Shown: positions 1-45,523 of the stretch, one piece after another
How positions within the stretch are numbered: position 1 is the stretch's first letter
How the letters are laid out: each line of letters starts with the position of its first letter
NCBI GenBank assembly: GCA_026874595.1
Contig: CM049309.1
Span: 22,179,033-22,243,032 of the forward strand
Origin: Sipunculus nudus
Lineage: Eukaryota; Annelida; Sipuncula; Golfingiida; Sipunculidae
DNA: 64,000 nucleotides
Direction: 5' to 3'
Translations under genes and position numbers: made by a program
Notes under the pieces: model-generated
What the model saw: the letters and a program-made list of their open reading frames with translations, nothing else
The model's database searches: none
Told to the model about the DNA's origin: nothing

Positions 1-1450
1 AACCGCTGGTTCCCGAAACCTTTAACATCCATGAAGGTGCTTAAAATATCACCCTGGACACCTTAAATGAGGTCATTGCGATCTACATTCTTTGAGTTAC
101 GGAGCCTTTTATTGCACCAATGAATACTTCAAAATTTGACACAAAAGCTCCAGTAACTGAATATCTAATTAATTTATTATGCATATATCAAATTTAATTT
201 TTTTTTAATTTAACGCATTTCATTCTCAATTTTGGACCTGCAAATGAAGCAATCTTTTCGTTAACAGGACACAAACCGTAATCGTTAGAAATAAAAAACT
301 TCTAACTATACATGCCGGGAGGTTCTAGGCAAATCTCCTTAGAAACCTGAAATTTTGTCATGGTGACATATATTTTACGAATTAATAGTGAATTTTGAGC
401 ACCAAGTGATTCAGACATGGCACAAATGCATGGAGGGTTTCATCAGTTCCAGAAGACTGGTGGCGCCACCTTTCTTTGTTTTACATTTCTATGCATTTTT
501 TCTCTATTTGAATGAGACTTAAATTGAAGCAGTTTGGCTGGTAACAGGGTACAAGTCATAATCGTTTGACCTATAAACTTCTACATATTCAGGGAGGTTT
601 TTGGTAAATATCCTACGAAAGCTCAAAATAGGTCATGGTCACCTATATTCTGGATACTATGGACCGAAAACATGATTCTAAGTGCCCAGTTAGTAAGACG
701 GTGGACAAATTGTATCCGTTAGGCCTAGAATATTCTAACGCAACATCCAGGGAGATTTTGGACAAATCCCCGCGGAAACCTAAAACTAAGTCATGGTAAC
801 CTATATTCTGCGGTCTACTGGACGAAACATGATTTTAAACATCCAGACAGTCAGGCAGGACAGATAAAAAATGTACTGTTTGAGCAAGAACCTTGTGATA
901 TGACATTCAGGAATGTCCTTTGCAAACCTCCTCTAATCCATGAACTGGGTCATCGTGACCTTTATTCTGTTAGCTATAGAAAACAATATGATTTTAGCTC
1001 TGATAAAGTCGGAGATGGGCACACATCAATACGGCAGGACCCAGAATATACTGACTTAAAGTTTTGAGAATCATGAAAGTCACACAGGGCACAATGCTTA
1101 TCTGTTGGATTTAGAAATGTCTTTCTTAATGTAAATGGAGGTCATTGAAAAGTCTTCTGGAACATACGAAATAAAGTAACTGTGACTTATGTTCTGAAAG
1201 ATATGTGAATGGATATGATTTGAGCGTGCTATATGACAGATCTACATGATTGGTTTCATTTGGACCTGCTTACTTCTAATTTGATTAAGGTTCCAGAAGG
1301 TTCTTGAAAATGTTACCTGGAACCTAAAATAATGTTAATTTGAAATATATTCTAGGAGCTCTGTGAATGAACATGATTTTAGTCAGAGGGGCAAAATTTA
1401 TAGCAGCTGGACGTAGAAACTTCTAACTGGTCAAGTCTTCTTGGGAACCC
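1..1450. repeat. Array of diverged ~150-bp monomers (AGGTCA-palindrome family, copy 1)
   Basis: Successive blocks share the same order of phrases: a GGGAGGTTCT-like start, AAATCTCC, an AGGTCATGGTNACCT-like palindrome, TATATTCTG, ACATGATTTT and a CAGACAG-like end, at about 150-bp spacing (palindrome near 350, 630, 790 and 945). The first ~440 bases match 59,270-59,700 almost phrase by phrase, and 26,170-27,550 is a further copy. No open frame of note. The palindrome resembles an inverted nuclear-receptor half-site with a 3-bp spacer, but this may only be a property of the repeat. Confidence 0.65.
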
Positions 1451-1461
1451 TAAATAAGGGG

Positions 1462-1690
1462 GGCCTGGACAGTCGAGGGGTAAAACGCTTTCTCTCCGCT
1501 GGCGACCAGGGTTAGATCCCCGGCCTGGCTTTGAGAGTGGGTTGTAGTTGCCCGTCCAAGGCCGGTGGTTTTCTCCGGTTTCCTCCACCTCTACATTTTG
1601 CCGAACGCAAGAGTCTGAGCCATGGAGAGTGCCGCGATTAGTTATAATAACTATTTGTACAATCCATGTAAAATAAATAAGTTTATATTT
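1462..1690 (+). mobile_element. tRNA-derived SINE
   Basis: The head is tRNA-like: GGCCTGG, a degenerate A box (GTCGAGGGGTAAAACGC), and a B box GGTTAGATCCC at 1510-1520 followed by CGGCCTGGC, which can pair with the 5' GGCCTGG. Downstream is a central domain with GGTTTTCTCCGGTTTCCTCC, common in animal SINEs, and an A-rich end (AAAATAAATAAG). It lies inside the 150-bp monomer repeat and so is probably a later insertion. The anticodon arm does not fold cleanly, so this is not a functional tRNA gene. Target-site duplications were not clear to me. Confidence 0.6.
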
Positions 1691-1859
1691 AACCTATTTT
1701 CTATGGACTATGGGCAAAAAGCATGATATTGATCCCTCTGGAAGTCATTCTACCCATTGTTTAAGGTTCCTTTACAAATATTTTTCACCAGCTCATGAGA
1801 TCAATGTTTGATGCATGCGTCACCTGTATGTCAAATTCAGCTGCGCGACATGGCACATA

Positions 1860-2460
1860 GGCCACTTTTTAGCTCAGTTGACTATAAGTCATCTGAGCTA
1901 TAGTCGTGGTCCATTGTCCGTCGTCCGTCCGTCTGTCCGTCCGTCCGTAGATGTGGCACGTTTTGAAACCGTAAGACCTAGGAATAAAAATTCAGCACAA
2001 TGTTAGATGTCCCTAAGATCTCCTACCAAACCGAAAACTGGGTCTTTGCGACTTTGTTCCTGTGAGAAATTAAGGAAAAACCTCAATTTTTTTTCTTAAA
2101 ATCCTATTTTCACACTTCAGGACTGCCTTATATCAAAACCACTCATCTGTTTTTCCTCATATTTACCATAAATATTTCTCTATATAGTTCCTATGTACAT
2201 CCGTGAAATTAAGTCTGTTAAGTTTAAAATCTTCAAGTTATGGGCCCAAACATAATGGACTTTGTAAAAAATCAGGAAAAAAATTTACTCACTTAACATG
2301 AAAAATTATGTAACTAGAGTCTATTTTCCCAAGTATATAACTATAATTAAGATTCAATTGTTTACCCAAAATTAGATCTCAATTTTGTAAATTTTAAAGT
2401 TATTAGCATAAAAATAAAATCAGTACCTTAAATTTTGCCAAACTTTGACCATGGCACTTT
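1860..2460 (+). repeat. TAGCTCAG...CTGAGCTA repeat head with (CCGT)n, then AT-rich sequence
   Basis: TAGCTCAG at 1870-1877 and CTGAGCTA at 1893-1900 form a hairpin. A CCGT/CCGTCTGT microsatellite follows at about 1917-1949. The same head occurs at 26,178 and 59,175, where it introduces the AGGTCA-type monomers. The rest, to 2,460, is AT-rich and holds no recognisable gene. Confidence 0.55.
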
Positions 2461-2960
2461 TTTAGCGAACCTGTGAGCTTTTGCGATGGCGCAGCGTCGT
2501 CCGTCCATCGTCAGCCGTCCGCCGTCCAGGGCTGGCTTTCCGCCGTCCATGGCTGTAAGTCAAAAACCTTCGGAGCTAGCAGCTCCAAATTACATGTAAG
2601 AATTAGTCACATGTGAAACTTGGTGCCCTGGAGCTTATTATTGGGTATCTGCATTAATTTAGATTTTATAGAGAACAAGCTTAAAAACCTTTATAAATCT
2701 TCTTCTCTGAAACTGTCCGGCCAAATTGTCCAATATTTCACAGAAATGATCCCCTGAACAATCTCTCTCAAGTTTGTTCGAATGGTTCCAGTTTACAGAT
2801 TTTTGGCCGAGTTACAGGAGGTTGAACTTAGTCATCTGTCCGAAAAAGCACACTAAAATTAAAATTTCACAAACGGCTAGAGCTATAATCACCAAATTTT
2901 ATACCAATGTTTGTCACATATGTCATATCTGATTTTGAGGTATTTGTGGTGCCACCTACA
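2461..2960 (+). repeat. Dispersed repeat with CGTCCGTCC-rich head
   Basis: It starts with a GC-rich CGTCGTCCGTCCATCG stretch and runs into long AT-rich sequence with TCTTCTCTGAAACTG and GGCCAAATTG, a layout typical of bivalve dispersed repeats. It ends in a GGTGCCACCTACAT motif shared with the next family. No coding sequence seen. Confidence 0.4.
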
Positions 2961-3277
2961 TTTATATGGTTTTTTTTACAAGCGAAAATGTAATTTTAAA
3001 CTCTTCTATTCTTATACACTGATTTATGATGAAACTGTTAAGCTGATTTTTTTAAACTTTACAAGAATTATTCTATGGTAGGGTTCTGCCAGTTTTATTA
3101 GAATAGATTGGGTAAATACAGCTTTAAAAAACATTATAGCCAATTGAAAAAGGCTTTCTGTATTTGAAAACAGATTTGACAACATTGTGAGTTTCAGCAG
3201 CCAAGTCAAGAGGTCAGTCAGTACAAACAGCTGGGGTCCAGACATCACCATGGCAACTGACCTGGCTCTTGGGGGTG

Positions 3278-11562: not shown

Positions 11563-12261
11563 TTTTACGGTATATAATGTTTTATCTACTAGAGCAATCT
11601 ATTGGACTTTTGTTCAAATGAAACTCAACAGAAAAAAATACAATGAGAAAAAGATACATTATGGAGATTTGTTATTGTTGTTAAAATGCTCAATTCTTGT
11701 AACCTCTAACTCGCTCACATTTTTATTCATATTAGATATGTTGACTCGTTAAAATGTGATAAGGTATAACATGTTTGGTTAAGATTGGTATAACGGCTTA
11801 ACATCATTCACACTGAATGAAAATATAATATCCTATGTTCTTTGTAAGCGCAGTATATCACAAACAATATTAGTATAATTCCATGTATATTTTCAATCTG
11901 TTGCACTAATATCATAAACAATGGCTACATAAAAGTCTTAAGAAATGGGAAACTTGGCATATACATAAATGTTAGAGCCATTCCAGTCGAGGCGCTGTCC
12001 AAACCTTGAGACAAAGGGACAGCCCTTTGCCACAATGGAAAAAAGTCTTTGTGTAAACAATGAAACATGACAGTGAACATAAATACTTTAATGGCATGAT
12101 GATATGAATTAACACTCCTGAAACGTTAATTCAAGTCTGCTCATTACCTTTTACGTTAATTCGAAAACAGACAAACCAACTAACGAACCAAGGCAAGAAA
12201 ATATAATACTTTCGCCTTCCCGTTGAGGTTTTATAATAATATAATTATAGTCACTAGATAC

Positions 12262-12282
12262 AGTGGCGTATCAAGGATTTGA
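12262..12282 (+). mobile_element. hAT-like terminal motif
   Basis: CAGTGGCGTATCAAGGATTT begins here and resembles the CAG[TG]GGCGT ends of the element at 17,306-20,647. No partner end with a matching 8-bp duplication was found: the candidate right ends at 14,022-14,053 and 16,434-16,474 have different flanks. Confidence 0.35.
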
Positions 12283-12298
12283 AAATAGATATAATAAT

Positions 12299-12555
12299 AT
12301 ATAATATATATATATATATATATATTAATAAATCTTTTTTTAATTACATTGATATTCCACAAAGCCCTTTTAGTAGGAAGCAAGCATATTTAAACTTGTT
12401 TGAACACACTGCGTGGCTGTTAATTTGTCTCCTACTAAACATATCAAATATTGTTAGTTCGTGCATAATTATTATGATTATTAGATGTAATTTTGTAAGG
12501 TATCTAGTTCAAGTTGTTTTTGTGTTAACCGTTGGATCCTCATCTATATATATAT

Positions 12556-12600
<45 letters not shown>
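12299..12600. repeat. (TA)n microsatellites
   Basis: TA-dinucleotide tracts at about 12,299-12,326 and 12,545-12,598 generate spurious Tyr/Ile-rich frames. The AT-rich sequence between and after them, to about 13,040, shows no gene. Confidence 0.85.
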
Positions 12601-13054
12601 GCATTATTTGAACAACAGAAAAATACATGTATCAATAAGTGTAGTGTTGTAACTTAATTGTAACTTTTAAGTAGAAAATGGTCAGCACACTTGTAAAAGA
12701 ACTGAAATGGATTAACTATTATATGTCACTGAATCTGTCAAAGGATACTGCATCTATTTTTCATGTAGAGCTTCTGATAATGAATTCCATAATATAGGTT
12801 TTCGTAGATAAATTGTTTTGCAGAAATTAAGTTCGAACTATAGCCAGTGGAGTTAAAAAGAAATAAAGATAGTCTGACCTGAGGTAATTAAAGTGTAGCT
12901 GCTTATTTATTCTAGGATGAAATTGGGCTTGGGCAACATGCACCCGCGCAATTTAAAGAGATAAAATCACATTTTTTTTACTGGAATAGAATTTAGAGCC
13001 TAAACCTTCAAATTATCAGGACTGCATATTACTATGAAACAGAAAGATACTTAC

Positions 13055-13152
13055 CAGGCTAGGTAAGAAGACTGCTCTTTGGAAGTGGGTTGCTCTTCAC
13101 CTTGGTGGCCGACACTGTCGTAAAACCAACCCCAAGATGAATAAGAAGCCAT
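13055..13152 (-). CDS. Candidate first coding exon, function unknown
   Basis: On the minus strand an ATG at 13,152-13,150 opens a frame that stays open for 32 codons plus two bases, to an excellent 5' splice site, CTG|GTAAGTATC (exon end 13,055). The peptide starts MASYSSWGWF and is rich in Q, E and S near its end; I do not recognise it. Promoter elements lie at the expected distance upstream (separate entry), which is the main reason to believe in it. The rest of the gene would lie below 13,055 on the minus strand; no convincing second exon was found there. It could belong to a cellular gene or to the promoter-exon of a mobile element. Confidence 0.45.
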
Positions 13153-13199
13153 ACCCTGGCTGGCCTCAGGGCCAGCCTTCTATAGAGCCCACTTGTCTC

Positions 13200-13340
13200 G
13201 TCCAAAAGAGAGCGAGTTGCTATGTTTTTTCCCTTTTATACAGGTTACAGAAGGCAGGGTAGAAACCCTGCATTGTGATTGGTTAAGGGGCATCTCTATA
13301 TTGACTGTCAATCAGTGTTGATGCCCCACCCCTGGCCAAC
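13200..13340 (-). promoter_or_regulatory. RNA polymerase II core promoter candidate
   Basis: Reading the minus strand: a GC box (GGGGTGGGGC, about 13,332-13,323), a CCAAT box (AACCAATCAC, about 13,287-13,278), and a TATA box TATAAAAG at 13,240-13,233. Transcription would start near 13,205-13,210, giving a ~55-base leader before the ATG at 13,152. Order and spacing are textbook for a TATA promoter. Start site and activity are inferred. Confidence 0.5.
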
Positions 13341-15430
13341 TGAGGTCAGGTCAAAGGGCAAGAATGCTACAAAAGTACATAAACACAAGAAATATTGGAA
13401 GTGAAAAATACTCATTGACTGTTATTTGCATACCATTTGCAGGTTCATATTATTATTGAAAATGCAGCTTTCTGACATAAAGCCTGGCCATCTAGCTCCA
13501 GTGACAGTAGCTGGGTATTTAAAGGTGATTTTAAATACCTCAGAACCTAGCCATGACAACATGACACTCAGGCTTTCGGAAATAAAACTGATAGGGCCTG
13601 GAGTCATGATGGCAGTCACAACAGAACGCCCATTCTAAGGGTCGGATCAAAATGCAGTTTCATTATAATTATAGTTGCATGCATATATTAAAATTGCTTA
13701 TGCATGATTCTGCTTTTAATGAGTGTATAATGCAATACATGATACATAATCGGAAAACTATAAGTTCTTATTTTTTTTATTTGTAAATTTAATATATCTC
13801 TATATATATATATATATATATCGTCGGTGTTATTATCGAGTAAAGTGTGATAACGGAAATACTTCCTATCTCATTATACTAGTATATTTTTGGATGCTCT
13901 CTTAGTGGAGTAAATCACCAATTTATTTATTGGAAAGTAATAAATATAATAATGAAATTGCTAGGGAATAAAAAAAGTAATCTGGAAAAGAAATGAAAAT
14001 TAAGAGATATTACGTCTGAACGGGCTTGCGCCCTCTATGGATGCACCACTGAATAATAAATATGATATAATTAACCCTTGTACGGCATTAAAAATGCAGT
14101 TATAAATTACGATGTTATTCAAAATAAAATATAGTAATATATTTTCCATACGTTGAACAAATATGAAAATTCAATATATCCCAGAAGGTCATCGCTGGAA
14201 CAAACATACATGTATCATATGCAAAACGTATGTCTTTCAATATGTTACAGTTCAACGATATTAAAAAAAAAAATGTTACATTTATATCTTAGAAAAGGAA
14301 TACAACAGTCCAGATAATATATAACATACTAATACATGTATTATTATAAAATCTGATCGATTTACGAATTTAAGCAAATATTTTTTTAAACTAAAATTAA
14401 TTCTTTTTCAAGTTTTTGACTCTTTCTTTAAAACTTTATCAATCTCGATATTTATATTATATTAATTCCACTCCTGATGTTTCAAAATCACATTTCAACT
14501 TCAAATATATGGATATTTATTAATATATTAAAGTATGTTTGCATCTGATTGCATGATAAGGGCATATAACCAGAATGTGCACCCTTCAACTTCATATTAC
14601 TGTACGATTACAAGGATCTCGATAAGAAATCACAATTTTGTTTATATAATTTATATATAAATGCAACCGGACCATGAAATGTAAAATATAATTTGGCATA
14701 AAAAGTATTACATAAAAGATAAGGGTCTTAGAGATTCATAATACTGATGAATTTTTTTTTTGGTCAATGGAAGAGGAAAATGTTTTCAAATTATACATTA
14801 AAAATAAAATATTTTGTTCGAAACAACTTGTAAAATCATTAACTGGACGGTTTTTTGGTTCTGTCAAATTTTCTGTTTAAGTCTCTATGATATTATCAGG
14901 GTGATTTTTATAGGGGCACATGTATAAAATATTATCAAAACCTTTATTTTTTTCATGTTTCCATCAACATAAAATGCGGTAACAGCTTAAAATATTGATG
15001 AGTTAAAATAATCTTGTTTTACAAAATGAAATAAAATATCAATATAATATATTATTTAAAAAAACAGCATCATGAATGTTACAAAACAGAATGAATTTAT
15101 GAAAAATACATGATACTGAAGAAACTGAAAATGCTTGACACATTTGCTGACGATATGATGACCAGTGCATTTGCCATTACTGGCTTCCGAGTTTTACACA
15201 TTTGGACCATAACCGGGCATTTCCGAGCAAAAAATAGTCATTAACTTCGGATGGATAACTTTGATTATTTTACATGATGATAGAAAAGACCTTATTCTAT
15301 CAATAAAAATAAAAAGGTACTTTCCATTGATGTAGTAGCATTTTAATTATGCTTCGATCATTGCTTTACAAAAAGTCCTTGCTTCCGACTTCCGACTTCC
15401 GAGTTTTACACATAGCCGTTTGGAAATCCC
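13340..15430. other. AT-rich intergenic sequence with a small hairpin
   Basis: GGTATTTAAA at 13,514-13,523 and TTTAAATACC at 13,530-13,539 form a tight hairpin within a looser ~110-bp inverted arrangement. A (TA)n tract lies at 13,799-13,821. A hAT-like right-end motif (CGCCCTCTATGGATGCACCA, then CTG) lies at about 14,030-14,052. The remainder has no supportable gene. Confidence 0.5.
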
Positions 15431-15812
15431 CTACCGGAAGTTATGATTCTCCCGCTGACAGACGTGGAGACGAGTTTTTCGAGTAAAACCAGCCTCGGAA
15501 TTAAAAACTGCTGCACGTTTGCACGTAAGTCAACCGTAGATGTAATAATTATTATTTTCCCCAACAGAATAACGTCACTTTTTGTCTTAACTCAGGAAAA
15601 TGACAGTTCGAGAAGTGGATGAAAATGAAAAAGTAGTGTCAGAAATGGCGTGCACATCTGCACATACTAGAACTGATGCGAACCCAATAGCTTGTACTGT
15701 CACCCCATCGTCTTCAGTTCATCTAAAATCGACGTTTGGGGTGACAAGCTGTCGCTACCCAGAACCAAGAAACCGGAAGCTTTCATATAGTATTTTGGTG
15801 TATTCCAGGTTA
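15430..15812 (+). CDS. Candidate 5' exon(s), function unknown
   Basis: This is a locally GC-richer island in AT-rich surroundings. An ETS-type motif CCGGAAGT lies at about 15,434, a donor-like CACGTAAGTC near 15,521, and an acceptor-like TTAACTCAG just before an ATG at 15,600. The frame runs 77 codons to a stop at 15,831, or could leave at CAG|GTTAAA near 15,810. The peptide begins MTVREVDENEKVV and is S/T-rich, with no domain I recognise. The short putative intron (~75 bases) and imperfect second donor weaken the case; a chance ORF cannot be excluded. Confidence 0.25.
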
Positions 15813-15839
15813 AATTTTAAAAATGAGGCATAGCATACG

Positions 15840-17297
15840 TCTAGTCAAAGTACAAATAGCTTGCATTGATTGTTTGACAGTTTTTTGCCATCCTCCATCA
15901 TGTTACAGAACAATCACAGGGTTGGGAGACTTCACTTCTGCACACAAACAAAATATAAAAGAGAGATAGTAAAAAACATGAGAGAAATGTGTAAGTATAT
16001 AATCCCTTTACTGTTCAGATTTATTTTAGAAATGTTCAAAGTCTGACACTCTTTACATTTACATTACGAACAATATCTAGCTAAGCTTTTGTTCTTCCTT
16101 CACAAAATTTCAACAAATACAACAACACTAGTTTCTCTTTAGGTCAATAGGAACCTTTAGAACTGATAATAAATATACATTATTACATAAGTTATATATA
16201 TCCATATTTACATTACAGACAAGATCTTTCTTGTTTTTCTTCTTTCTTTTCCATATGGGAATAACATTACCATAACCGCGCATAGAGAAACATGAAAATA
16301 TTTTTTTTTCTTAAAACGCCATATTTTATATCTATGTGTGTGCATACTCAATTAAAATAACATAAAATTAATTTGAGTTAACAAACATAACACTTGACAG
16401 TAGTTGACTGGTATAAGTGTTAGTAGGATTTTAGGGGGGCGCGCCCCTTTGCGCCCCCTATGAATACGCCCCTGAGGTATGATTGTCTAATTAGAGATCT
16501 GCTTCAATGAACAAGTTTGTGCATATTGTATTAGGTTCTTATTCGAATTTCACACTGATCAAAATAATGTAGATGACTACGATCTTGTTGAAGGCGGCAT
16601 ATCCCTTTGATACCTGAAATGTCTGAAACGTGACAAGATATTTTCTTTATGTTAAGTTATATTTAGAATACTCATTCAGTCAAGTGAAGTTTATTAGATA
16701 TCATTCTACTATCATTGTCGCTTCTACGCACCTGTTAATGCTATTATTTATAAGAACAAATATAAAGCTAAACAAGGTAAGTGGTTTCATTCAACTAAGT
16801 TCTCAGACAAGTTTCAAAACTGATAACCTTTATCTTTTTCTTCTCCTGTACAACATGTACAAACCAGTCATGACTGAATTCTGTCTGTACATGTGTAACC
16901 CATCACAGGGAAAATCCCTGTCGACTGTGGTGTCAGGAGGTGAAAGGTCAAGATCATATCTGAAGTTAATCTCAATATGGCTTTCAGATGATGAAATTCT
17001 TGTTAGGAGTGTAAGCTAAATTCGCATGCTTGTAAGCTGAGCGTCATTACCCATGGGTCACTTGTTTAATTATTCTGACTTTCGTGAGACTTCCTTTACC
17101 TTTTTTTTTAAAGAAAATGTTTAGTTCAGTTTCACTTAAAATTGTTATAGATGCAGCTTAACATTTTCTTGTTATGGAATCATATCTGATGGAATAAATT
17201 AGAATCGTTCGTGTATCTCTTGTAATGCTTATATCTTGAACGGTTAAGGGCGAAAGACCAGTCTGAAAAAAAGAGGCAGTAGTAAGGGTTATAGTCT
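15840..17297. other. AT-rich sequence; isolated transposon-end motifs
   Basis: A palindromic GGGGGGCGCGCCCC followed by TACGCCCCTG at about 16,434-16,474 looks like the right end of a hAT-like element without its left end. A GTCATTACCCATGGGTCAC motif at about 17,043-17,061 recalls the 5,635 motif. The open frame 16,630-17,019 shows no family similarity. Confidence 0.4.
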
Positions 17298-17305
17298 AAT
17301 ATCAT
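17298..17305 (+). repeat. Left 8-bp target-site duplication, AATATCAT
   Basis: AATATCAT immediately precedes the CAGTGGCG end and is repeated exactly at 20,648-20,655. The preceding bases, GGTTATAGTCT, belong to a 39-bp satellite monomer that resumes in phase on the far side. Confidence 0.85.
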
Positions 17306-17357
17306 CAGTGGCGTCAATTTTTTTCCAGAGTGGGGGGGGGGGGGGGGGATGAATTTG

Positions 17358-17394
<37 letters not shown>

Positions 17395-17437
17395 GTACAC
17401 ACATATATACCTTTCAGCGTCTGTGAGTGACATATTC

Positions 17438-17479
<42 letters not shown>

Positions 17480-17570
17480 GATTATAATATATATATAATT
17501 ATATTTCAAATAATTATAATATTATAATAGAAAATAAGTTATTTTGTGAGTTCTAAGCAGGTTTAGATAT

Positions 17571-18000
17571 AACATGTTTTGGTAATCGTGCAAAATAACG
17601 GACCCATATTTCTCTCTCTCACAAATAACTGTGACCACATTTCACTAAATTTTTTTTTGCATGATAAAGTTGACGATCCGGCGCATCTAATGATATCATA
17701 TTTTTGTATGTTATTAATATATTTATTTTGCTACAAACTGTCGAAAAAGGGTAGTTTGCCGAAAATACCCAAAATGACGTCGTGTCAAAGACGTTCTGAG
17801 CCGACGTCATGAATCCACAGTAATATATATATATACCATGTTAAACATTTAGATGATGTCTTATAAAATTTACAGTCAATATATAATATTACCCATATAC
17901 GTTTATACTTTTTTACCTCATTTTATCCACATTTTACTTGATGTACGTTCAAGGTGACGACGCCCTGCCGTCAGAACGTAAACAAATGTCGAGTGTCACG
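17571..18000 (+). repeat. Left inverted arm
   Basis: It starts AACATGTTTTGGTAATCGTG and matches the reverse complement of 20,475 down to about 20,040. Conserved blocks include ATAACGGACCCAT, TGTGACCAC, ACAAACTGTCGAAAAAGGGT, AAAATGACGTCGTGTCAAAG, GCCGACGTCATGAATCCACA and ACCATGTTAAACA. Identity is high to about 17,888 and looser beyond. Two TGACGTCR motifs resembling CRE sites fall in the best conserved part. Confidence 0.8.
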
Positions 18001-18344
18001 TGACAAGTCATGCACTTAAAATCAAGAGAGACACGGGAGAAACACGTTCGTCCGCATAATGTTACAACATTTTTTGTTATACTAACATAATAATATCCTT
18101 ATTTTTAATAAAATAATTATTAAGTGTGACAACATTTATTAGTTATAATTAAGGACATTATTAATTTTGGGATCTCTTTTTTATAAATTGTGTGACCACA
18201 TATAGTAGTTAGAAATAGTAAAAAAAAGGTGTTGTGACCACATTTAAATATATTCTTACATCATTATATCCCTTATTTTTTCTAAATTTAATCCTGAATT
18301 ATTTTCAAACCAAGAGACCATTTTTTTTACCAATAAAAAAATAA

Positions 18345-18497
18345 GTTGTGACCACATTTTATTTGACCAGCCATATAAGTTTGTATTATATATAGAATAT
18401 TATAAAATGTGGTCACATATGGTGTGACCACATTTTTAACCCATGAATATTGACAAAAATAAGGTGTGACCAAAATTTAACCAGCCATATAAATTTG

Positions 18498-18542
<45 letters not shown>

Positions 18543-18751
18543 AATGTTGTCACATATGGTGTGACCACATTTTTAAAAATAAATTTTGCCAAAAATAAGT
18601 TGTGACCACATTTAACTTGACCAGCCATATAAGTTTGTATTATATGTAGAATATTATAAAATGTGGTCACATATGGTGTGACCACATTTTTAACCCATGA
18701 ATATTGACAAAAATAAGTTGTGACCAAAATTTGACCAGCCATATAAGTTTG

Positions 18752-18802
<51 letters not shown>

Positions 18803-19760
18803 AATGTTGTCACATATGGTGTGACCACATTTTTAAAAATAAATTTTTGCCAAAAATAAGTTGTGACCACATTTTACTTGACCAGCCATATAAGTTTGTA
18901 TTATATATAGAATATTATAAAATGTGGTTACATATGGTGTGACCACACTATTACCAATAAATATTAACAAAAAAAAGGTGTGACCACATTTTATTTGACC
19001 AGCCATATAAGTTTGTATAATATATAATATTATAAAATGTGGTCACATAGTGTGACCACATGTTTTACAATAAATATTAACAAAAATAAGGTGTGATCAC
19101 ATTTTATTTGTCAAGCCATGTAAGTTTGTAATAAATGTATAATATTTTAGAATGTGGTCACATATAATGTGACCACATTTTTTACAATAAATATTGACAA
19201 AAATAAGGTGTGACCACATTTTATTTGAACAGCAATATATGTTTGTATTATATAAATAATATTATAAAATATGGTCACATATGGCGTGACCACATTTAAT
19301 ACCTATAATTATTAACAAAAATAAGGTGTGACCACATTTTATTTGACCAGCCATATAAGTTTGTATTATATATATAATATTATAAAATGTGGTCACATAT
19401 AGCGTGGCCACATTTATTACCAATAAATATTAACAAAATTAAGGTGTGACCACATTTTATTTGACAAGCCATGTAAGTTTGTAATAAATGTATAATATTT
19501 TAGAATGTGGTCACATATGGTGTGACCACATTTTTTACAATAAATATTGACAAAAATAAGGTGTGACCACATTTTATTTGAACAGCCATATATGTTTGTA
19601 TTATATATATAATATTATAAAATATGGTCACATATGGCGTGACCACATTTATTACCAATAAATATTAACAAAAATAAGGTGTGACCACATTTTATTTGAC
19701 CAGCCATATAGGTTTGTATTATATATATAATATTATAAAATGTGGTCACATATGGATGAT
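18345..19760. repeat. Tandem array of ~113-150 bp hairpin monomers
   Basis: About 12 units are marked by CCAGCCATATAAGTTTGTAT near 18,368, 18,480, 18,622, 18,735, 18,885, 18,998, 19,112, 19,225, 19,347, 19,466, 19,583 and 19,701. Each carries the inverted pair TGTGGTCACA / TGTGACCACA around a TATGG-like loop and a further TGTGACCACA. (TA)n tracts expand two units (18,499-18,537; 18,755-18,798). The same TGTGACCACA word occurs in both flanking arms. Repeated subterminal motifs of this kind bind transposase in known hAT elements; that role here is inference. Confidence 0.85.
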
Positions 19761-20475
19761 ATGCCCAACATGGTCCCGTGTTTCTGCCGCGTTCGCCTCG
19801 ATTTTAAGGGCTACCGGTCTGTTACTCATGGTGAGGGGATGTTCCCATCTGATTGTCCTTACATAAAGTAGTCTAACAGGACAAAAAAAAATAAATAAGA
19901 TAAATGACATGTATAAAATGTAGTCTTTATACTCTGTCCACAAAAATGACTGTTTATTACACAATTTATATTTATTTGACATATAAAACGTACATAGAGA
20001 CAAAGCTGAATAGAGCAAGAGTTAACGTGATCAGTCGAATACATTCACAGACGACATTGCATGTTTATGTTTTTGGCGGCACGACGTCGTCAACTTTTAT
20101 TAAATCTTGGGAAATATGGATATTTAGAGGTAAAATTGTCTCTCTATCTATGCATAAAAAGATATATTGACTGTAATTTTTGTTAGACATCATCCTTTTG
20201 TTTAACATGGTATGCACGTACAGTAGTGTGGATTCATGACGTCGGCTGAGAACGTCTTTGACACGACGTCATTTTGGGTATTTTCAGCAAACTACCCTTT
20301 TTCGACAGTTTGTAGCAAAATATATTTATATCAAACATACAAAAATATTGTACCATTGGATGCGCTGGATCTTCAACTTTTACATGAAACAGTTTTTTTT
20401 CATTGAAATGTGGTCACACTTTTTTGTGAGACCATGTAAGATGGGTCCGTTATATTGCACGATTACCCATGTTTT
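19760..20475 (-). repeat. Internal spacer and right inverted arm
   Basis: About 280 bases of non-repetitive spacer follow the array, with a locally GC-richer part near 19,760-19,850. The right arm, about 20,040-20,475, is the reverse complement of 17,571-18,000 and ends CACGATTACCCATGTTTT. No coding sequence. Confidence 0.75.
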
Positions 20476-20647
20476 AGTTAATGGATTCAAAGTTTTCTAA
20501 TTATTAATATATTTCATTTGCAATATTATAATATTTTTCTCTGAAAAGTGGGGGGGGGGGGGATTACATTGGCCATCCCCCCTTGCCAAAAAGTGTGGGG
20601 GGAGGGTATATATACCCCCATCCCCCCCCCCTATATTGACGCCCCTG

Positions 20648-23600
20648 AATATCATACAAAGATAGTTAGTCTCGTGGTTATAGTCGGATATCATGCAGAG
20701 AGAACTGGTCTCGTGGATTTAGTCTGATATCAGACAGATCTCGAGAGCCCTAGTCTCGTGGTTATAGTCTGATATCACACAGAGATATCTAACCTCGTTG
20801 TTCAAGTATGATATCATACAGAGATATCTTATCTCTGTATGAGTTAAAGTCTGATATAACTCAAGAATATCTAGACCCGTGTATATAGTCTGATATTACA
20901 CGGAGAGGTCTTGTCGCGCGGTTATAGTCGGATATCACACAGAGATATCTAGTCTCGAGGCTATAGTCGGATATCGCAAAAGGAGATATGGTCTGGTGGT
21001 TATAGTCTAATATTACACGGGGAGATGTAGTGCCGTGGTTATAGTCTGATATCAAACAAGGATATCTATTTCCGTGGTTATTTTCTGATATTACACACAG
21101 AGATCTAGTCCCGTGGTAATTTTTTTGATATTTGATTGAGAGATCTAGTGTCATGGTTAGAATCTGATATTACACAGAGAGATCTAGTCCCATGGTTATA
21201 GTCTGATTTCACACACAGAGATCTGGTCTCGTGGTTAGAGTATGATGTTACACAGAGAGATCTGGTCTCGTGTTTATCGTCTGATATCACATTGAGAGAT
21301 CTAGTCCCATGGATATAGTCTGATATCACACACACACAGATCTAGTCTCGTGGTTAGAGTCTGATGTTACACAGAGAGATCTGGTCTCGTTTTTATAGTC
21401 TGATATCTAGATAAATAGTCTGACTAGTTCAATGGTTATAATCTGATATCACACAGAGATATTTAGTCTGATGGTTATAGTCTAATACCACACACAGATA
21501 GTTAGCATTATGGTTATGATCGGATATCATGCAGAGAGAACTCCTGGATAGAGTCTGATATCAGGCAGAGACACCTAGTCTCGTGGTTAGGGCCTGATAT
21601 CACACAGAGCTATCTAGTCACGTGGTTAAAGTCTCATATCACATAGAATCAAATAGAGGGATCTAGTCTCATTGTTATAGTCTGATAGCAGGCAGAGACA
21701 GCTAGTTTCGTGGTTATAGTCTGCTATCACAGACAAATCTAGTCCCCCTGGATAGAGTCATATATCACACAGAGATATTTAGTCACGTGGTTTTAGTCTG
21801 ATATCACATAGAGGAATCTAGTCCCATTGTTATAGTCTCATGGCAGGCAGAGACAGCTAGTTTCGTGTTAATAGTCTGATATTACACGAAGAGATCTAGT
21901 CTCTTAGATATAGACTGATATCATAGAGAGAGCTGGTCTCGTGGTTATAGTCTGAAATCACACAGAGATATCCAGTCTCGTTGTTCAAGTCTGATATCAC
22001 ACATAGGAATCTAATCCCGTACTTAAAGTCTGATATCACATAGAGATACCTATTCCCATGGTTAAAGTCTGATATCACAGAGAGATATCTTGTCCCTATC
22101 ACACCGAGAGATCTAGTCCCGTGGTTATACTCTGTTAATACACAGAGATGTCTGGTCACGCGCTTATAGTCTGATATCACACAGAGATATCTAGTCCTGT
22201 GGTTATAGTCTGATATTACACGGAAAGATCTAGTCCCATGGTTATAGTTTGATACCACAAAGGGATGTCTAGTCTCATGGCTATAGTCTGATATCACACA
22301 GGGAGATCTGGTCTGGTGATTATAGTCTGATTTCACACAGAGATATATAGTCTCGTTGTTCAAGTCTGATATCACACAGATAAATCTGATCTCATAGTTA
22401 AAGTATGATATAACACAAGGATATCTAGTCCCATGGTTAAAGTCTGATATCACATGGAGATATCTAGTCCCTATCACACCGAGATATCTAATCCCTTGGT
22501 TATAGTCTGATGTCACACAGAGAGATGTAGTCTCTGTTACACATAGAGATCCAGTCCAGTGTCTATAGTCCGATATATCACAGAGATATCTTGTCTGTTG
22601 ATTATAGTATGATTTTACAAAGAGAGATCTAGTAGATATAGACTGATATCACAGAGAGCTGGTCTTGTGGTTATAGTCTGATATCACACAGAGATATCTG
22701 GTTTCCTTGTTCAAGGCTGATATCAATAAGAGAAACCTAGTCCCGTTCTTATAGTCTGATATCACACAGAGATATCTAATCTCATATTTAAAGTCTGATA
22801 TAACACAGGGATATCTATTCCCGTGGTTATAGTCTGGTATTACATGGAAAGATCTAGTCCCATGTTTTAACTCTGATATCACACAGATATATCTAGTCCC
22901 GTGGTTAAAGCCTGATAATACATCGAGAGATCTAGTCCCGTGGTTATAGTCTGATAATACACAGAGATGTCTAGTCACGCGCTTATAGTCTGATATCACA
23001 TAGAGATATCTGGTCTCGTGGCTATAGTCTGATATCACACAGAAAGATCTGGTCTGTTGGTTATAGTCTGATATTTCAGGGAAAGATCTAGTCCCATGGT
23101 TTTAGTCTGATATCACACAGGGATGTCTAGTCTCATGGCTATAGTCTGATATCACCCAGAGAGATCTGGTCTGGTGGTCATTGTCTGATATCTCAGAGAG
23201 ATTTCCAGTCTCGTTGTTCAAGTCTAATATCACTCTAGTCCCGTGGTTAAAGTCTGATATCACAAAGAGATATCTAGTCTCGTGGTTAGGATTTGATGTC
23301 ACACAGAGATATCTAGATAATCTATTGACCTAGATTCGTGTTTATAGTCTGATATAAAACAGAGAGATCCGTTCATGTGGTTATAGTCTGATATCATACA
23401 GTAGGCCCAATGTTGTGGTTAGGGTCTGGTCCCTATCATACCGAGATATCTAGTCCCGTGGATATAGTCTCATATTATACAGAGATATCTAGACTCATAG
23501 TTAAAGTCTGAAAATACAACAGGGATATCTAGTCTCATGGTTAAAGTCTGATATCAAACAGACATATCTAGTGCGGTGGTTATAGTTTGATATCACACAG

Positions 23601-25200
23601 AGATGTCTAGTCCCTATCACACCGAGATATGCAGTCCCGTGGATAAAGTCTGATATCACAGATAGATATCTTGTCCCTATCACACCGAGAGATCTGGTCC
23701 CGGGGTTATACTCTGTTAATACACAGAGATGTCTACTCACGCGTTTATAGTCTGATATCACATAGAGATATCTAGTACCATTGTTAAAGTCTGATATCAC
23801 ACAGGGATGTGTAGTCTCATGGTAATAGTCTAATATAACACAGAGATATCTAGTCTCATATTTAAAGTCTGATATAACACAAGGATATCTAGTCCCGTGG
23901 TTATAGTCTGGTATTACACTGAAAGATCTAGTCCCATGGTTTAACTCTGATACTACACAGGGATGTCTAGTATCGTTGTTCAAGTCTGATATCACACAGA
24001 GATATCTAGTCTCATGGCTATAGTCTGATATCACACAGGGAGATCTGGTCTGGTGGTCATAGTCTGATATCACACAGAGATATATAGTCTCGTTGTTCAA
24101 GTATGATATCACACAGAGAAATCTTGTCCCGTGCTTATAGTCTGATATCACATTGAGATATCTGATCTTATAGTTAAAGTCTGATATAACACAAGGAGAT
24201 CTAGTCAAGTGGTTATTGTCTGATATTACACAGAGATATCTAGTCCCTTGGTAAAGTCTGATATCACAGAGAGATATCTAGTCCCTATTATTCCGAGATA
24301 TCTAATACCTTGGATTTAGTCTGATATAACATGGAGAGATGTAGTCTCGTGGTTATAGTCTGATATGCAACAGAAAGATCTGGTCTGGTTGTTATCTTCT
24401 GATATCACACAGTAAGATGTGGTCTGGTAATTATAGTCTGATATCACACAGAGAAGTCTAGTCCCGTGGTTAAAGTCTGATATCACAAAGAGAAATCTAG
24501 TCTCGTGGTTACGATTTGATGTCACACAGAGATATCTTGATAATCTAGAGACCTAGATTCGTGTTTATAGTCTGATATAAAACAGAGAGATCCGGCCATG
24601 TGGTTATAGTCTGATATCATACAGTCGGTCCAGTCTCGTGGTTAGGGTCTTGTCCCTGTCATACCGAGATATCTAGTCCCGTGGATATAATCTGATATCA
24701 AACAGAGATATCTAGTCCGGTGGTTATAGTTTAATATCACACAGAGATATCTAGTCCCTTTCACAAGAGATATGCAGTCTTGTGGATAAAGTTTGATATC
24801 ACACAGAAAGATCTAGTCTCGTGGTTATCTTCTGATATCACTCAGTGAGATCTAGTCTCTTTGTTATAGTCTCATATTACACAGAGAGATCTTGTCTAGT
24901 TGTTATAGTCTCGTATCACAGAGAGATCTAATGTCATGGCTTTAGTCTGATATCACACAGAGATATCTAGTCCCATGGTTAAAATGTGATATCACACAGA
25001 GATATCTAGACCCTTGGTTATAGTCTGATGGAACAGGTTATCTAGTCTCATGATTAAAACCTGATATCACATAGAAATATCTAGCCCAATGGTTATAATC
25101 TGATATCACACAGAGATATCTACTTCTGTGGTTATAATCTGATATCACACAGAGATATCTTGTCTCATTGTTAAAGTCTGATATCACCCACAAATATCTG
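20648..25200. repeat. 39-bp satellite array, ~115 monomers
   Basis: The consensus has GGTTATAGTCTGATATCAC followed by ACAGAGATATCTAGTCTCGT, a 39-base period, rich in GATATC, AGATATCT and AGATCT. Because 39 is a multiple of three, one minus-strand frame has no stop and gives 13-residue peptide repeats (YNHETRYLCVISD-like) over up to 206 codons (21,896-22,516) and 235 codons (23,501-24,208). Indels break it into eight or more frames. Longer segments recur at ~0.75-0.84 kb and ~1.6 kb, indicating higher-order duplication. Its first monomer lies left of the hAT-like insertion. I read it as satellite DNA; coding use is not supported by any start, splice or conserved-domain signal. Confidence 0.9.
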
Positions 25201-29687: not shown

Positions 29688-30044
29688 CGACCCATATGTG
29701 TATTTGCACACTTTATAAGACCAGCGAAGTGATGTCACAGTGATTTGCTGTAGCTCAGTGGTTAGAGCAGACGACCGGCAATCGGAAAGTCATGGGTTTG
29801 ATTCCCATCGGCAGTGATCCGACATTTCTGTGTATTCATGTTCCATTTCTATCTACAATGAACCAGCATGGCTGTTCTTACATCCCCCTTATAATATATG
29901 CCGCACACCATGAAAGGTCACAAATTATCAGTGCCGCATGCAAATTTGCTGTGTCGACACGTATTGGGAAGCACTTTAACGTCACTGCTGTGACGTCCCG
30001 TTTCTGCTTCCTATAAATGTGTGCAAATACACAAAGGGGTCGGG
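29688..30044. mobile_element. Foldback element with ~33-bp inverted ends
   Basis: CCGACCC followed by GTGTATTTGCACAC and TTATAA at 29,688-29,720 is inverted as TATAAATGTGTGCAAATACAC plus GGGTCGG at 30,012-30,040. Further in, GATGTCACAG (29,733) pairs loosely with CTGTGACGTC (about 29,988-29,997). It encloses a tRNA-like segment. It inserts in the third 0.65 kb tandem unit. Confidence 0.65.
29749..29866 (+). mobile_element. tRNA-derived SINE-like unit 1
   Basis: D-arm GCTCAGTGGTTAGAGC with A box TAGCTCAGTGG, T-arm ATGGGTTTGATTCCCAT with B box, and an acceptor TTTGCTG that pairs with CGGCAGT except at the outermost position. The anticodon stem pairs only at its inner three base pairs and position 33 is C rather than T (loop CCGGCAA), so it is not a credible functional tRNA. 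The tail CTGTGTATTCATGTTCCATTTC is shared with unit 2. Confidence 0.6.
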
Positions 30045-32399: not shown

Positions 32400-32660
32400 T
32401 TTTTTGTCTGACTGAAAGTAACCTGGAAGTTCACATCCCGAGTGGTGTGACACGGTATCCAATTAAGGCGAGTAAGGTGCTGTCAGCCGGTGTCAAATGA
32501 AGTCCGGTCAGGTGCTGCCTACTGGGGTCCAGTGAGGTCCAGTGAGGTGCTGCCAGCCGACATCCAGTGAGTTCAAGTGAGGTGCTGCCAGCGGGTGTCC
32601 AGTGAGGTGCTGCTGCCGGATGTCCGGTGAGGTTAATTATTATGATGATCCTTACTTGTA
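32400..32660. repeat. GC-rich minisatellite, short block
   Basis: CAGTGAGGTGCTGCCAGCC-like words recur 6-7 times with variable 25-35 base spacing. It is the same minisatellite as 34,460-35,200 and lies between two gag-like fragments, in a position where an LTR would be expected. Confidence 0.8.
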
Positions 32661-33055
32661 ACAAGAGAGCTAAAGGGCCTCAGTTTCTCTTTAAGTAGCG
32701 TTAGTAGACGGTACTCTGCAGTGTCGGGTGACCTCTCAACTGCATTTTCAGTGTCAGTTGAATCTGACCACTGAGGTTTTACCCCTTCCCCCGGCCCATG
32801 TTTTATCGCCCAGATTTAGCAACCGTTCTCGCCGCGTATCACCGTGTAGTACCACGTACTTACGGATTTCCTAGGTCTTGAGGGTCTGTATACCCTGTTG
32901 GGTCGGAATTCGTGTCCGTCAGTTAGTCCGTGTGGTGTCACGGTAGGTTTAAGGGTGGCATAGAGTACAGGCGTTTTAACACTCAGGTCGAGCCGGGTGT
33001 TGTATTATAACGTAGGTTCGACCGTCAAACGTGGGTTGCCTACGTAAAGTCTTAT
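32660..33055 (+). mobile_element. Possible LTR/leader segment of a Gypsy fossil
   Basis: GC-rich sequence leading to a gag-like ATG at about 33,060. TGGTGTCACGG near 32,932 could be a remnant primer-binding site. No matching second LTR was demonstrated, so the boundary is inferred. Confidence 0.3.
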
Positions 33056-33059
33056 CGCT

Positions 33060-33930
33060 ATGGACCTGTTGAGAGAGGCAATAGACTGTGGTAAGGCAAT
33101 GGGTAATACAGGGGAGAGTTACAGAAGTTTGCTCAGAGCCAGGTTCTAAGGCTACAGAGCTGGCCGCGTCAGGAACAAGATGAGCATGCTAGGGCTCGCG
33201 CATACGAGTTAGTTACAGAATAGAGAGCGGAAAGATCGCAAACACAAGTTAGGTTTAGCAAATGTAGTTATAATGACAATTATATGTAAACTGCCCCGTA
33301 TACATCGGGGAAACGGAAGCCGCCGTGATAGAGAATCCCTTGTATGATTTGATCATCGGGAATGTCAAGGGCGTTAGTGCAAACTTGAAAGGGCAGGATC
33401 CGATACTAAATCCGATGCGCATTGATTGATCCGACTCCCGAAGTTGCTTCGGCAATAGAAACCAGGACATTGAAACGTAAGCGAGCGCAGGGGACGCATT
33501 AACTATTCGTGCCGAATCAAGTCATGGAGATTTGTCCGTCGGACACATTTTCGCTGCGGTGAGTAAATCAACACGTGAAGAGGAAAATTCCTGTCTTGAG
33601 TCCTCGGAGGATGAAGATCACTCGGGTCAAAGCCAACGATGGCGAGGCCATAGCCCTCATACCCAGTTCTGTACAACGCGAGAATATCTGATCGCCTACC
33701 GTATAATAGGAAACTATTGTCGAGAGAGCAAAACTACCCGACGGTCGTGCTTAAATGTTTGTCAGTCGTTTGTGCGATCCAAAAATATGACAGGAAATTC
33801 ACGGTCCAGAAGGATAAGAAACCCATAAGTTGCATTACAACGTCCAAATGCAACAACAAACGAGTGTTGCAATGGGCGCTGATACTGCAAGAGTACTAGT
33901 TTGAAATTTCCATTACGGCACCTGACTTTT
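33060..33930 (+). pseudogene. Ty3/Gypsy retrotransposon fossil (gag, protease, RNase H)
   Basis: In order: gag-like start (LREAIDCGKAMGNTGE) at 33,063-33,115; a protease-domain tail with NPLYDLIIGN at about 33,334-33,363; then, after loss of most reverse transcriptase, a fragment typical of the RT connection and RNase H (CLSVVCAIQKYDRKFTVQ at about 33,751-33,806, and RVLQWALILQEY at about 33,861-33,896). Family order is gag-PR-RT-RH-IN, so this is a deletion derivative. Multiple frame changes and stops occur. No integrase seen. Confidence 0.65.
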
Positions 33931-34450
33931 TTTAGTAGGAGTTGTAAACGAGTAAGGCCATTAAATTTAGAGCAGTGTACGACTCAAAGTTTTATAAGAC
34001 ATGAGTCGAGCCAATGTAGAAAACAGATTACTTTGTAATACTTTTTTTTAAAGGGGGGTGGGGTGGGGGTGGGGGTCTCAAATGGAAAGTGTCATTGTGT
34101 TTTATTTTTATTTCACGGGTACACTCTAACCGGGTTGGCTGTTCATTTGTATTTGTTGCGCTAGAATTGACCGCCGATTAGAGCTTTGTTTAGGGTATTC
34201 AGTGCGCTTTGTTCAAGGAAAAATTGGTGGCTTAATGACTTTTGTTCCAAGTACAGCCTATTTGGTATTCAGCGTGCTCATGAATATAAATGGGCCATAG
34301 TAGAAAAAACAGGCGATTCTTTGTGTTTGTCTTATGAATACAAATAAGCCTCCAGGGTAGAAGGGTATTTAAGGACGTGGATAGGGTAATTGAGGGATAC
34401 ACAGAGTGGAGCCTGCAGAGACCAGAAGTGCCAGAGTCCAGCCAGTTGCC
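33930..34450 (+). mobile_element. Possible 3' LTR-like segment
   Basis: A purine-rich tract (AAAGGGGGGTGGGGTGGG) at about 34,050 resembles a polypurine tract. Mixed sequence follows with a promoter-like GGGTATTTAAGGAC near 34,365. It runs straight into the minisatellite. LTR ends could not be fixed. Confidence 0.3.
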
Positions 34451-34459
34451 GCTACCAAG

Positions 34460-35200
34460 CGAGGCATGTCCAGTGAAGTGCTGCGAGCCCGAGGCCAGTG
34501 AGGTGCTGTTCAGTAAGGTGCTGTCCAGCTAGGTGCTGCAATCCTGTGTCCAGTGAAGTGCTGTCAGCCCGAGTCCAGCGAGGTGCTGCAATCCTGTGTC
34601 CAGTGAAGTGCTGTCAGCCCGAGTCCAGCGAGGTGCAGTCCAGCGAGGTGCCCTCCGTCGAGGTGCTGTCCAGCGAGGTGCTCCCACTGTTGTTCTGTCC
34701 AGTGAGGTCAAGTGAGGTGCTGTCAGCCGATGACCAGTGAGGCCTAGTGAGGTGCTGTCAGCCAGTTTCCAGTGAGATGCTGCCAGCCGGTGTCCAGTGA
34801 GGTCCAATGAGGTGCTGCCAGCCGTCGTGCAGTGAGGTTCAAGTCAGGTACTGTCCAGCGAGGTCAAGTGAAGTTCTGTCAGCCGCTGTGCAGTGAGGTC
34901 TAGTGAGGTGCTGTCAGCCAGTGTCCAGTAAGTTCTAGTGAGGTGCTGTAAGCCGGTGTCAAGTGAGGTCCAGTGAGGTGCTGCCAGCCGGTGTTCAGTG
35001 AGGTGCTGCCAGCCGGTGTCCAGTGAGGTGCTGCCAGCCGGTTTCCAGTGAGTTCCAGTGAGGTGCTGCCAGCCGGTGTCCAGTGAGGTCCAGTGAGGTG
35101 CTGCCAGCCGGTGTCCAGTGAGGTCCAGTGAGGTGCTGCCAGCGGGTTTCCAGTAAGGTGCTGCCAGCGGGTATCCTGTGAGGTGCTGCCAGCGCGCTTG
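34460..35200. repeat. GC-rich minisatellite, long block
   Basis: About 25 copies of CCAGTGAGGTGCTGCCAGCC plus GGTGT, in 25-base units alternating with ~35-base units that carry an extra CCAGTGAGGT. Open frames on both strands (for example 34,844-35,272 minus, H-W-T-S-L-rich) are by-products of the repeat. Confidence 0.9.
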
Positions 35201-44686: not shown

Positions 44687-44860
44687 TGAATTTGTATCAC
44701 CATTTTAATGGGGTTTTTTTTCATGAGTGTTTGTGGAACTTGTGGGCTCATTTTGATATATATTAATGATCTTTGGCGAGTGAACTTGATAGTTCGTTAT
44801 TTCTATGTAAACTGCTTGAAAGTTGTTCACCAGTAATGTTTCAGTATTTTATTTCATGTA

Positions 44861-45523
44861 ATGTATAAAGCAAAATCCAAGAGGTACTGCCGTTTGAATC
44901 CTGTATTTGATAGTTCACACATAGCTGTCAGAGGTTACCATTGTCACAGTCGACATAGGGTAAACCGGTGGCCAGCTTTAGTTGAGCACAGAGAGTTGTT
45001 GATTTGTGATAGCATTACCAGGAATGTTAACAGAACTAGAAGTGCCGCATTCCCAGGTGCTAGAAATGAAACTATTCTCAATAAGGTTGTGCACGGCCAT
45101 ATTAGTGTTGAGAGTTATAAGGTGTATATTTTACATGTGGGTACCAACAATGTTGAGAAGAATAGTGTAGAAGAGATACGCTCTGCTATGAACAGACTTG
45201 TTACTTTGTTGAATGGAGAGAAATCTCAAGCTGTTACTGTGATTTCCAGCATCCTACCAAGGCCAAAGGACTTGGGTGTGAATGATCTGAATAGGAAAGT
45301 TACACAAGTGAATGCAATGTTAGCACGTCAGGCTAAGGCTTGGGATTGTAAATTCTTGAAATCATACAGGGCATTTATTGACAAACAAACCAAAGAGGTG
45401 CGACTTGATCTGTTTGCTGAAAACGAAGGGATACATTTTTATGAAACTGGAGCGATTGTATTGATGGATTACTTTGAGGGAAGTTTCCGATCTTTAGTCG
45501 GCAAGCTGTCAGATCGGGTGTGA
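44861..45523 (+). CDS. SGNH/GDSL-hydrolase-like protein
   Basis: 220 codons. SGNH hydrolases are esterases/lipases with four sequence blocks. Visible here: block I LLICDSITRNV (residues 47-57, the catalytic Ser at 51 kept but the usual Gly before Asp-Ser is Cys); block II FPGA (64-67); block III GTNN (94-97); a conserved SSILPRPKD stretch (129-137); block V ENEGIH (187-192, Glu-189 where Asp is usual, His-192 kept). Upstream stop at 44,834 in frame. A possible acceptor TTTCAG ends at 44,844, so more N-terminal sequence could come from an earlier exon. Such domains occur in CR1-like retrotransposon ORF1 proteins and in mollusc zinc-knuckle proteins; a mobile origin is likely. Loss of Gly and Asp may impair activity (inference). 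Confidence 0.65.
   Translation: MYKAKSKRYCRLNPVFDSSHIAVRGYHCHSRHRVNRWPALVEHRELLICDSITRNVNRTRSAAFPGARNETILNKVVHGHISVESYKVYILHVGTNNVEKNSVEEIRSAMNRLVTLLNGEKSQAVTVISSILPRPKDLGVNDLNRKVTQVNAMLARQAKAWDCKFLKSYRAFIDKQTKEVRLDLFAENEGIHFYETGAIVLMDYFEGSFRSLVGKLSDRV

Follow-up and report, generated by a model that had tools for sequence, protein, structure and literature searches.

The window analyzed here, a stretch of 64,000 nucleotides of Sipunculus nudus contig CM049309.1 (C4:22179033-22243032), contains two cut-and-paste transposons, one inserted into the other, at the edge of a 39-bp satellite array. The outer one is a short hAT-like miniature inverted-repeat transposable element (MITE), and the inner one is a longer non-autonomous element with Merlin-like ends. 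The events took place in the order satellite monomer, MITE, inner element, duplication of the region, and change in length of the array inside the inner element. That two such transposons are nested here in this order is very likely, an estimate that does not extend to the name Merlin.

The sequence AATATCAT is duplicated exactly (8/8) at 17298-17305 and 20648-20655, both copies without an assigned strand, as the target-site duplication of the outer insertion. Between the copies lies an insert body of 3342 bp (17306-20647), the ends of which, CAGTGGCGTCAA and CAGGGGCGTCAA, form an inverted match in 11 of 12 positions. In a screen of the window that required CAG...CTG ends with 10 or more matches in 12 positions and an exact 8-bp duplication flanking them, only this pair was found, as compared to 0.02 per window in 100 first-order-Markov randomized windows. 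A looser screen, in which 9 of 12 matching positions and one mismatch in the duplication were allowed, yielded four pairs versus 0.84 expected; of the three further pairs, two are located within the satellite and one spans 11.7 kb. After excision of the insert in silico, the 39-bp array is continuous from 17287, where its start is also placed by Tandem Repeats Finder (TRF), and the array score of 4401 increases to 4419; taken alone, the 18 bases adjoining the insert on the left score 31. Since the unbroken array runs from 17287 once the insert is removed, it starts 11 bp left of the outer duplication. These 11 bp (17287-17297, plus strand) are the left part of the interrupted first monomer, and the remainder of the array occupies 20648-25199 (plus strand). 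With 39 bp, the restored monomer has full length, and its identity to the array consensus is 87%. All of this agrees with the original prediction, which had described a hAT-like insertion in the first monomer of the satellite, near the edge of the array, with CAG...CTG ends and an exact 8-bp duplication, and had expected a continuous 39-bp phase after its deletion. As the insert interrupts the first monomer, it is also younger than this monomer, as had been claimed.

The prediction had further taken the 3.34 kb for a single element, copies of which should share its borders. The genome (1.43 Gb in 153 contigs) was searched with 17306-20655 as the query, which gave 294 matches; 39 of 3399 candidates were scored, and our statements rest on the matches listed. 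Nearly all of these are confined to positions 276-3162 of the query, give or take about 15 bases, i.e., to 17581-20467 of the window. These positions are the outer limits of two inverted arms of ~417 bp. Directly outside them, a second exact 8-bp duplication, CATGTTTT, flanks a sequence with the ends GGTAATCGTGCA...TGCACGATTACC. Thus, the inner 2887 bp (17581-20467, plus strand) have ends and a duplication of their own, the right copy of which lies at 20468-20475 (no strand assigned), whilst the left copy constitutes the last 8 bp (17573-17580) of the left part of the outer MITE. This left part (17306-17580, plus strand) begins with CAGTGGCGTCAA, the right part (20476-20647, plus strand) ends with TTGACGCCCCTG, and together they amount to 447 bp. 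The hAT-like label therefore holds for these 447 bp and is to be withdrawn for the 2887-bp bulk. Among the matches listed, only C4:22304373-22310459 reaches the outer ends, besides the window itself.

Other copies of the outer MITE were searched for with its left 275 bp (106 matches, 40 of 983 candidates scored), and 30 loci were returned, including the window and its regional duplicate discussed below. In 25 of the other 28 loci, both ends were found by pattern, 300-600 bp apart, and exact 8-bp duplications, as anticipated in the original prediction for further copies, are present at 22 of them. These 25 copies are 334-522 bp long and are therefore too short to contain the inner element. Two of them (L031 and L032) contain exactly the 20-base sequence ATAACATGTTTTAGTTAATG, the target of the inner insertion in its unsplit form; in the other 23, the best match is off at 1 to 7 positions. 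Similar terminal repeats are present in all 25, the copies having been selected by those ends. Three MITE copies of different length (L053, L055 and L058) have the same 8-bp duplication, GACATTAG; perhaps, copies of one repeat served as their targets, or the loci themselves were duplicated.

The ends of hAT elements begin with CA, and elements of the Ac type prefer nTnnnnAn as a target. At the outer target sites, T at position 2 or A at position 7 is found in 22 of 42 positions, whereas 33% would be expected (p = 0.007). No such lean is seen at the inner target sites (12 of 34 positions). This bias weakly favors hAT for the outer element and another superfamily for the inner one. As to structure, the outer element appears hAT-like in both features tested, i.e., its 8-bp duplication and its short terminal inverted repeats, which in hAT are described as 10-25 bp long (PMC3942097). 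In both respects, it resembles hAT elements such as Tip100 and the MITEs derived from them (PMC12511174, PMC3942097). When the terminal bases alone are compared, the terminal repeat reported for Tip100, CAGGGGCGGAG, starts with the same eight bases as are found at the right end of the outer element, CAGGGGCG.

For the inner element, 20 fetched regions and the window, 21 loci in total, were analyzed. Ends were located with a 14-base pattern in which up to 2 mismatches were allowed. Both ends were found in 19 loci, and 18 of these have exact 8-bp duplications. Since the window and its regional duplicate represent one insertion, the number of independent exact duplications is 17. The 19 copies vary in length from 2420 to 5634 bp, and no coding capacity was found in them: their longest stop-free frames comprise 84-233 amino acids and are mostly derived from the internal array. 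In the right side region of the window's copy, frames of 91 and 38 amino acids had no Pfam match up to E = 10. A scan with Rfam showed no family at gathering score inside the element; 20 sub-threshold matches (best E 0.012) coincided with runs of AT or G, with the array or with the end regions.

A second copy of a large part of the first ~47 kb of the window (1-47315) is present 105-115 kb downstream. It has the same orientation, is interrupted by insertions and gaps, and shows an identity of roughly 81-98%, depending on the segment. The match at C4:22304373-22310459 (L009) is regarded as part of this regional duplicate, because its flanks and its AATATCAT duplication are the same as those in the window. 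It contains the nested pair, both 8-bp duplications and the satellite flank, and its outer right end is CTA, not CTG. Left of the insertion, 164 of 164 aligned bases are identical, followed by 95.2% identity further left. The two outer parts are 94.7 and 93.0% identical, the inner arms 96.5 and 99.0%, the 39-bp array 98.1%, and the right flank 92.0%. This spread could be caused by gene conversion between the regional copies. When the 39-bp arrays of the two copies are aligned, four gaps (39, 78, 39, and 6 bp) separate them, apart from an end gap resulting from the chosen borders. The inner element, in contrast, measures 2887 bp in the window and 5634 bp in the duplicate, its internal array differing in length. 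The relative ages follow from these data. The outer insertion preceded the inner one, because the latter is nested in it and the inner target is unsplit in other outer copies, and, barring later conversion between the regional copies, both insertions predate the regional duplication.

Some other differences between the two regions were observed. A segment of ~4.2 kb in the window (12239-16477), with CAGTGGCGTATC located at 12261 and, at 16474, a sequence that has GAATACGCCCCTG as its last bases, is absent from the duplicate at C4:22301444-22301454; it was rejected as a clean 8-bp insertion, as the 8 bp outside its two ends differ. Conversely, 2.1 kb left of the duplicate's nested pair (C4:22302099-22304200, L060/L009), for which no family was matched, are absent between 17125 and 17133 of the window.

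The locus is best explained as follows. A non-coding hAT-like MITE of ~450 bp, presumably mobilized by a transposase encoded elsewhere, inserted into the first monomer with duplication of AATATCAT. A second, unrelated non-autonomous element with arms of ~417 bp then entered the MITE, duplicating CATGTTTT. Its most likely mover would be a Merlin-type DDE transposase supplied in trans, a suggestion for and against which the chances are about even. This enzyme would recognize the 27 bp at each terminus and, probably, also the TGTGACCACA site located ~49 bp inside each end. The ~117-bp unit with the same site forms a tandem array of variable length, presumably altered by slippage or unequal exchange, and the region was subsequently duplicated ~108 kb away. 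The two insertions, the order of their nesting, their existence prior to the regional duplication, and the unequal array lengths of the regional copies are shown by the sequences; the enzymes in this scheme, the role of the motif in binding, and any gain or loss of array units are inferred.

The inner element has GG at 37 of the 38 ends of the 19 scored copies (one end of L019 starts with AG), terminal inverted repeats of ~417 bp, and 8-bp duplications. It thereby shows three structural features given for the Merlin superfamily, i.e., GG ends, inverted repeats of 24-462 bp, and duplications of 8 or 9 bp (PMC8101967), and would fit in this superfamily. Some Merlin members are also reported to hold tandem repeats (PMC8101967), and the interior of the inner element is mostly a tandem array; a difference is that no transposase was seen in the inner family. 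As the assignment is structural, the element is termed Merlin-like rather than Merlin. Merlin is listed among the rarer superfamilies of bivalves (PMC10294476). The element could instead belong to another superfamily that generates 8-bp duplications, such as Mutator/foldback, P or hAT, and we consider this a serious alternative that falls slightly short of being probable. Mutator duplications measure 8-11 bp, mostly 9. All 18 exact duplications of the inner element were scored at 8 bp, which is inside this range, although their uniform size and the GG at nearly all ends speak for Merlin; against hAT stands the target bias of the outer sites, which is absent from the inner ones. Long arms are usual in foldback elements, and the element closest in design is one of these, Tetris of Drosophila virilis, which was placed in Mutator by its authors on the basis of duplication size and foldback form (PMC4079207). 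Tetris is likewise non-autonomous, with long inverted arms and internal tandem repeats of copy-dependent number; its own repeats are ~220 bp long, share 37 bp with the terminal domain and vary in number between allelic copies. Its duplications, however, are 8-10 bp, and each of its arms contains repeats, from which larger satellite arrays outside the element are fed (PMC4079207), whereas the element described here has one array between its arms and exact duplications of 8 bp. Another non-coding transposon with a tandem array of variable length is miDNA4 of Xenopus, but this is described as a Tc1/mariner element, from which the inner element differs by its 8-bp duplications and by the presence of the array motif in its own arms (PMC12628747). 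Repeat-bearing MITEs reportedly exist also in the clam Donax trunculus.

The arms of the Merlin-like element (left, 17581-17991, plus strand; right, 20052-20467, minus strand) are 78-83% alike within one copy, whereas left arms of different copies are mostly 90-99% alike bin by bin, and right arms likewise. The left-arm and right-arm consensus sequences nevertheless have several identical stretches in common, including 27 bp at the termini and 18 bp around TGTGACCACA. Besides, they share a 99-bp core with two differences (17724-17822, plus strand, in the left arm and 20224-20322, minus strand, in the right arm). Arm columns 149-246, taken as the core with borders set by eye, contain 4 differences in 98 columns versus 65 in 307 outside (Fisher p = 2e-5), and when the 69 differences were scattered at random, an equally clean stretch of 98 columns was found in 0 of 20,000 trials. 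Within one arm type, the identity of the core among recent copies is not clearly above that of the rest of the arm, and constraint on the core can therefore be read only from the older split between left and right arms. As single-stranded DNA, the window's left core folds better than shuffled sequences (z = -3.8), and the same holds for two segments of the array (z = -4.3 and -3.4). A 29-base pattern of the core had no exact match in viral contigs. The shared islands might be gene conversion tracts between the arms rather than constrained sites, since the arms can pair as a hairpin and the core is one continuous stretch with only two differences. The existence of several separate shared stretches, including the terminal 27 bp, and the fact that the motif in the 18-bp stretch is also repeated in the array make conversion the less convincing explanation, although it is by no means far-fetched.

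The array itself (18337-19755, plus strand) consists of units of ~117-118 bp, some of them longer via TA runs, with TGTGACCACA / TGTGGTCACA sites. Of the 19 left arms, 18 have the 10-bp site TGTGACCACA at a distance of 48-50 bases from the terminus, and so do 18 of the 19 right arms. The consensus of the array unit contains the site three times, with two of the sites facing each other. The window's copy has 28 exact sites, with none elsewhere in the window, and the number per copy ranges from 20 to 76. Array units are on average 91% alike, both within and between copies, and, hence, there is no sign of homogenization copy by copy. TGTGGTCACA is reminiscent of a RUNX site, and the array unit also contains AGGTGTGA, which is reminiscent of a T-box half site. 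The internal repeats of Galileo contain transposase binding sites, as cited in PMC4079207, and it is from Galileo that the binding-site model for the array is borrowed. Speculatively, the inner family might keep growing an array of its own recognition sites, which would act on either the transposase or some host factor as a bait or loading platform, with the 99-bp core as a second, larger platform. This idea, which we consider rather unlikely, is prompted by the 20 to 76 sites per copy, some in facing pairs, and by the 2.7-kb difference between the regional copies versus a few satellite units.

The near coincidence of the insertion with the edge of the satellite deserves comment. The array comprises 120 monomers, including the 11 bp on the left, and measures ~4.56 kb; by simple arithmetic, the chance of insertion in its first or last monomer is ~78/4563, i.e., 1.7%. 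The MITE might have struck a single ancestral 39-bp unit, after which the array grew rightward, and the position of the insertion only 11 bp from the left edge would be explained. We regard this as improbable, as the array looks old: its monomers are on average 75% alike without any effect of neighborhood, and it changed by only a few whole units between the regional copies. By comparison, the closest other copies of the MITE are 86-91% alike over the left part, the one at 91% being the regional duplicate. In view of the divergence of the monomers, the outer insertion is probably younger also than a long array. The coincidence, although mildly unusual, requires no special cause. The array contains long minus-strand frames, which are read as a by-product of unit length, since the unit is 3 x 13 bases and an open frame stays open.

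A single hAT-like element of 3.34 kb, or a composite that is mobile as a unit from its CAG...CTG ends, is highly improbable despite the clean outer ends and duplication and the one further full composite, because the latter shares its left flank, AATATCAT and satellite with the window and, hence, is the regional duplicate, because 17 other inner insertions have exact duplications of their own at the inner ends, and because the inner part is lacking in 25 other outer copies, two of them with an unsplit target; in view of these data, the match borders and the inner CATGTTTT duplication, the single element was rejected. Several observations do weigh against two nested elements. A 75% match at C5:92355543-92356109 extends across the inner border (query positions 54-592). 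In the set of 28 outer loci, three lack an end by pattern, three more have a one-base mismatch in the duplication, and, because three of the 22 exact duplications share the site GACATTAG, not all of them are independent; both T2 and A7 are present in only 3 of 21 outer sites. Among the inner copies, the duplication of L014 has 2 mismatches, and only one end was found in L015 and L025. Finally, no transposase was seen for either element, no genome search for one having been made.

Elsewhere in the window, a G+C-richer minisatellite with units of 15, 25, and 35 bp (such as GTCCAGTGAGGTGCTGCCAGCC) is located at 32471-35198 amid A+T-rich DNA. An open frame of 228 amino acids (44837-45523) shows likeness to a GDSL-like lipase domain slightly below the Pfam cut-off (30 vs. 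32.9 bits). An Rfam tRNA match at 29744-29816, for which ARAGORN (bacterial code) gave no call, lies among locally repeated sequence and is possibly a tRNA-derived repeat. Repeats at 6.1-8.3 kb and 59.9-61.3 kb are 79-84% alike.

To a large extent, the locus displays ordinary genome history; it is common for insertions to be nested and for non-autonomous elements to bear repeats. What it offers is the correction of a plausible single-element reading and, at one locus, a clean relative clock, which makes its history unusually readable. A nearly static 39-bp satellite and a changing array of ~117-bp units adjoin in the same two regional copies, and these side-by-side arrays therefore pose directly the question of why one tandem array changes and its neighbor does not. 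Should the inner family indeed keep growing arrays of its own recognition sites, such elements would seed new satellites.

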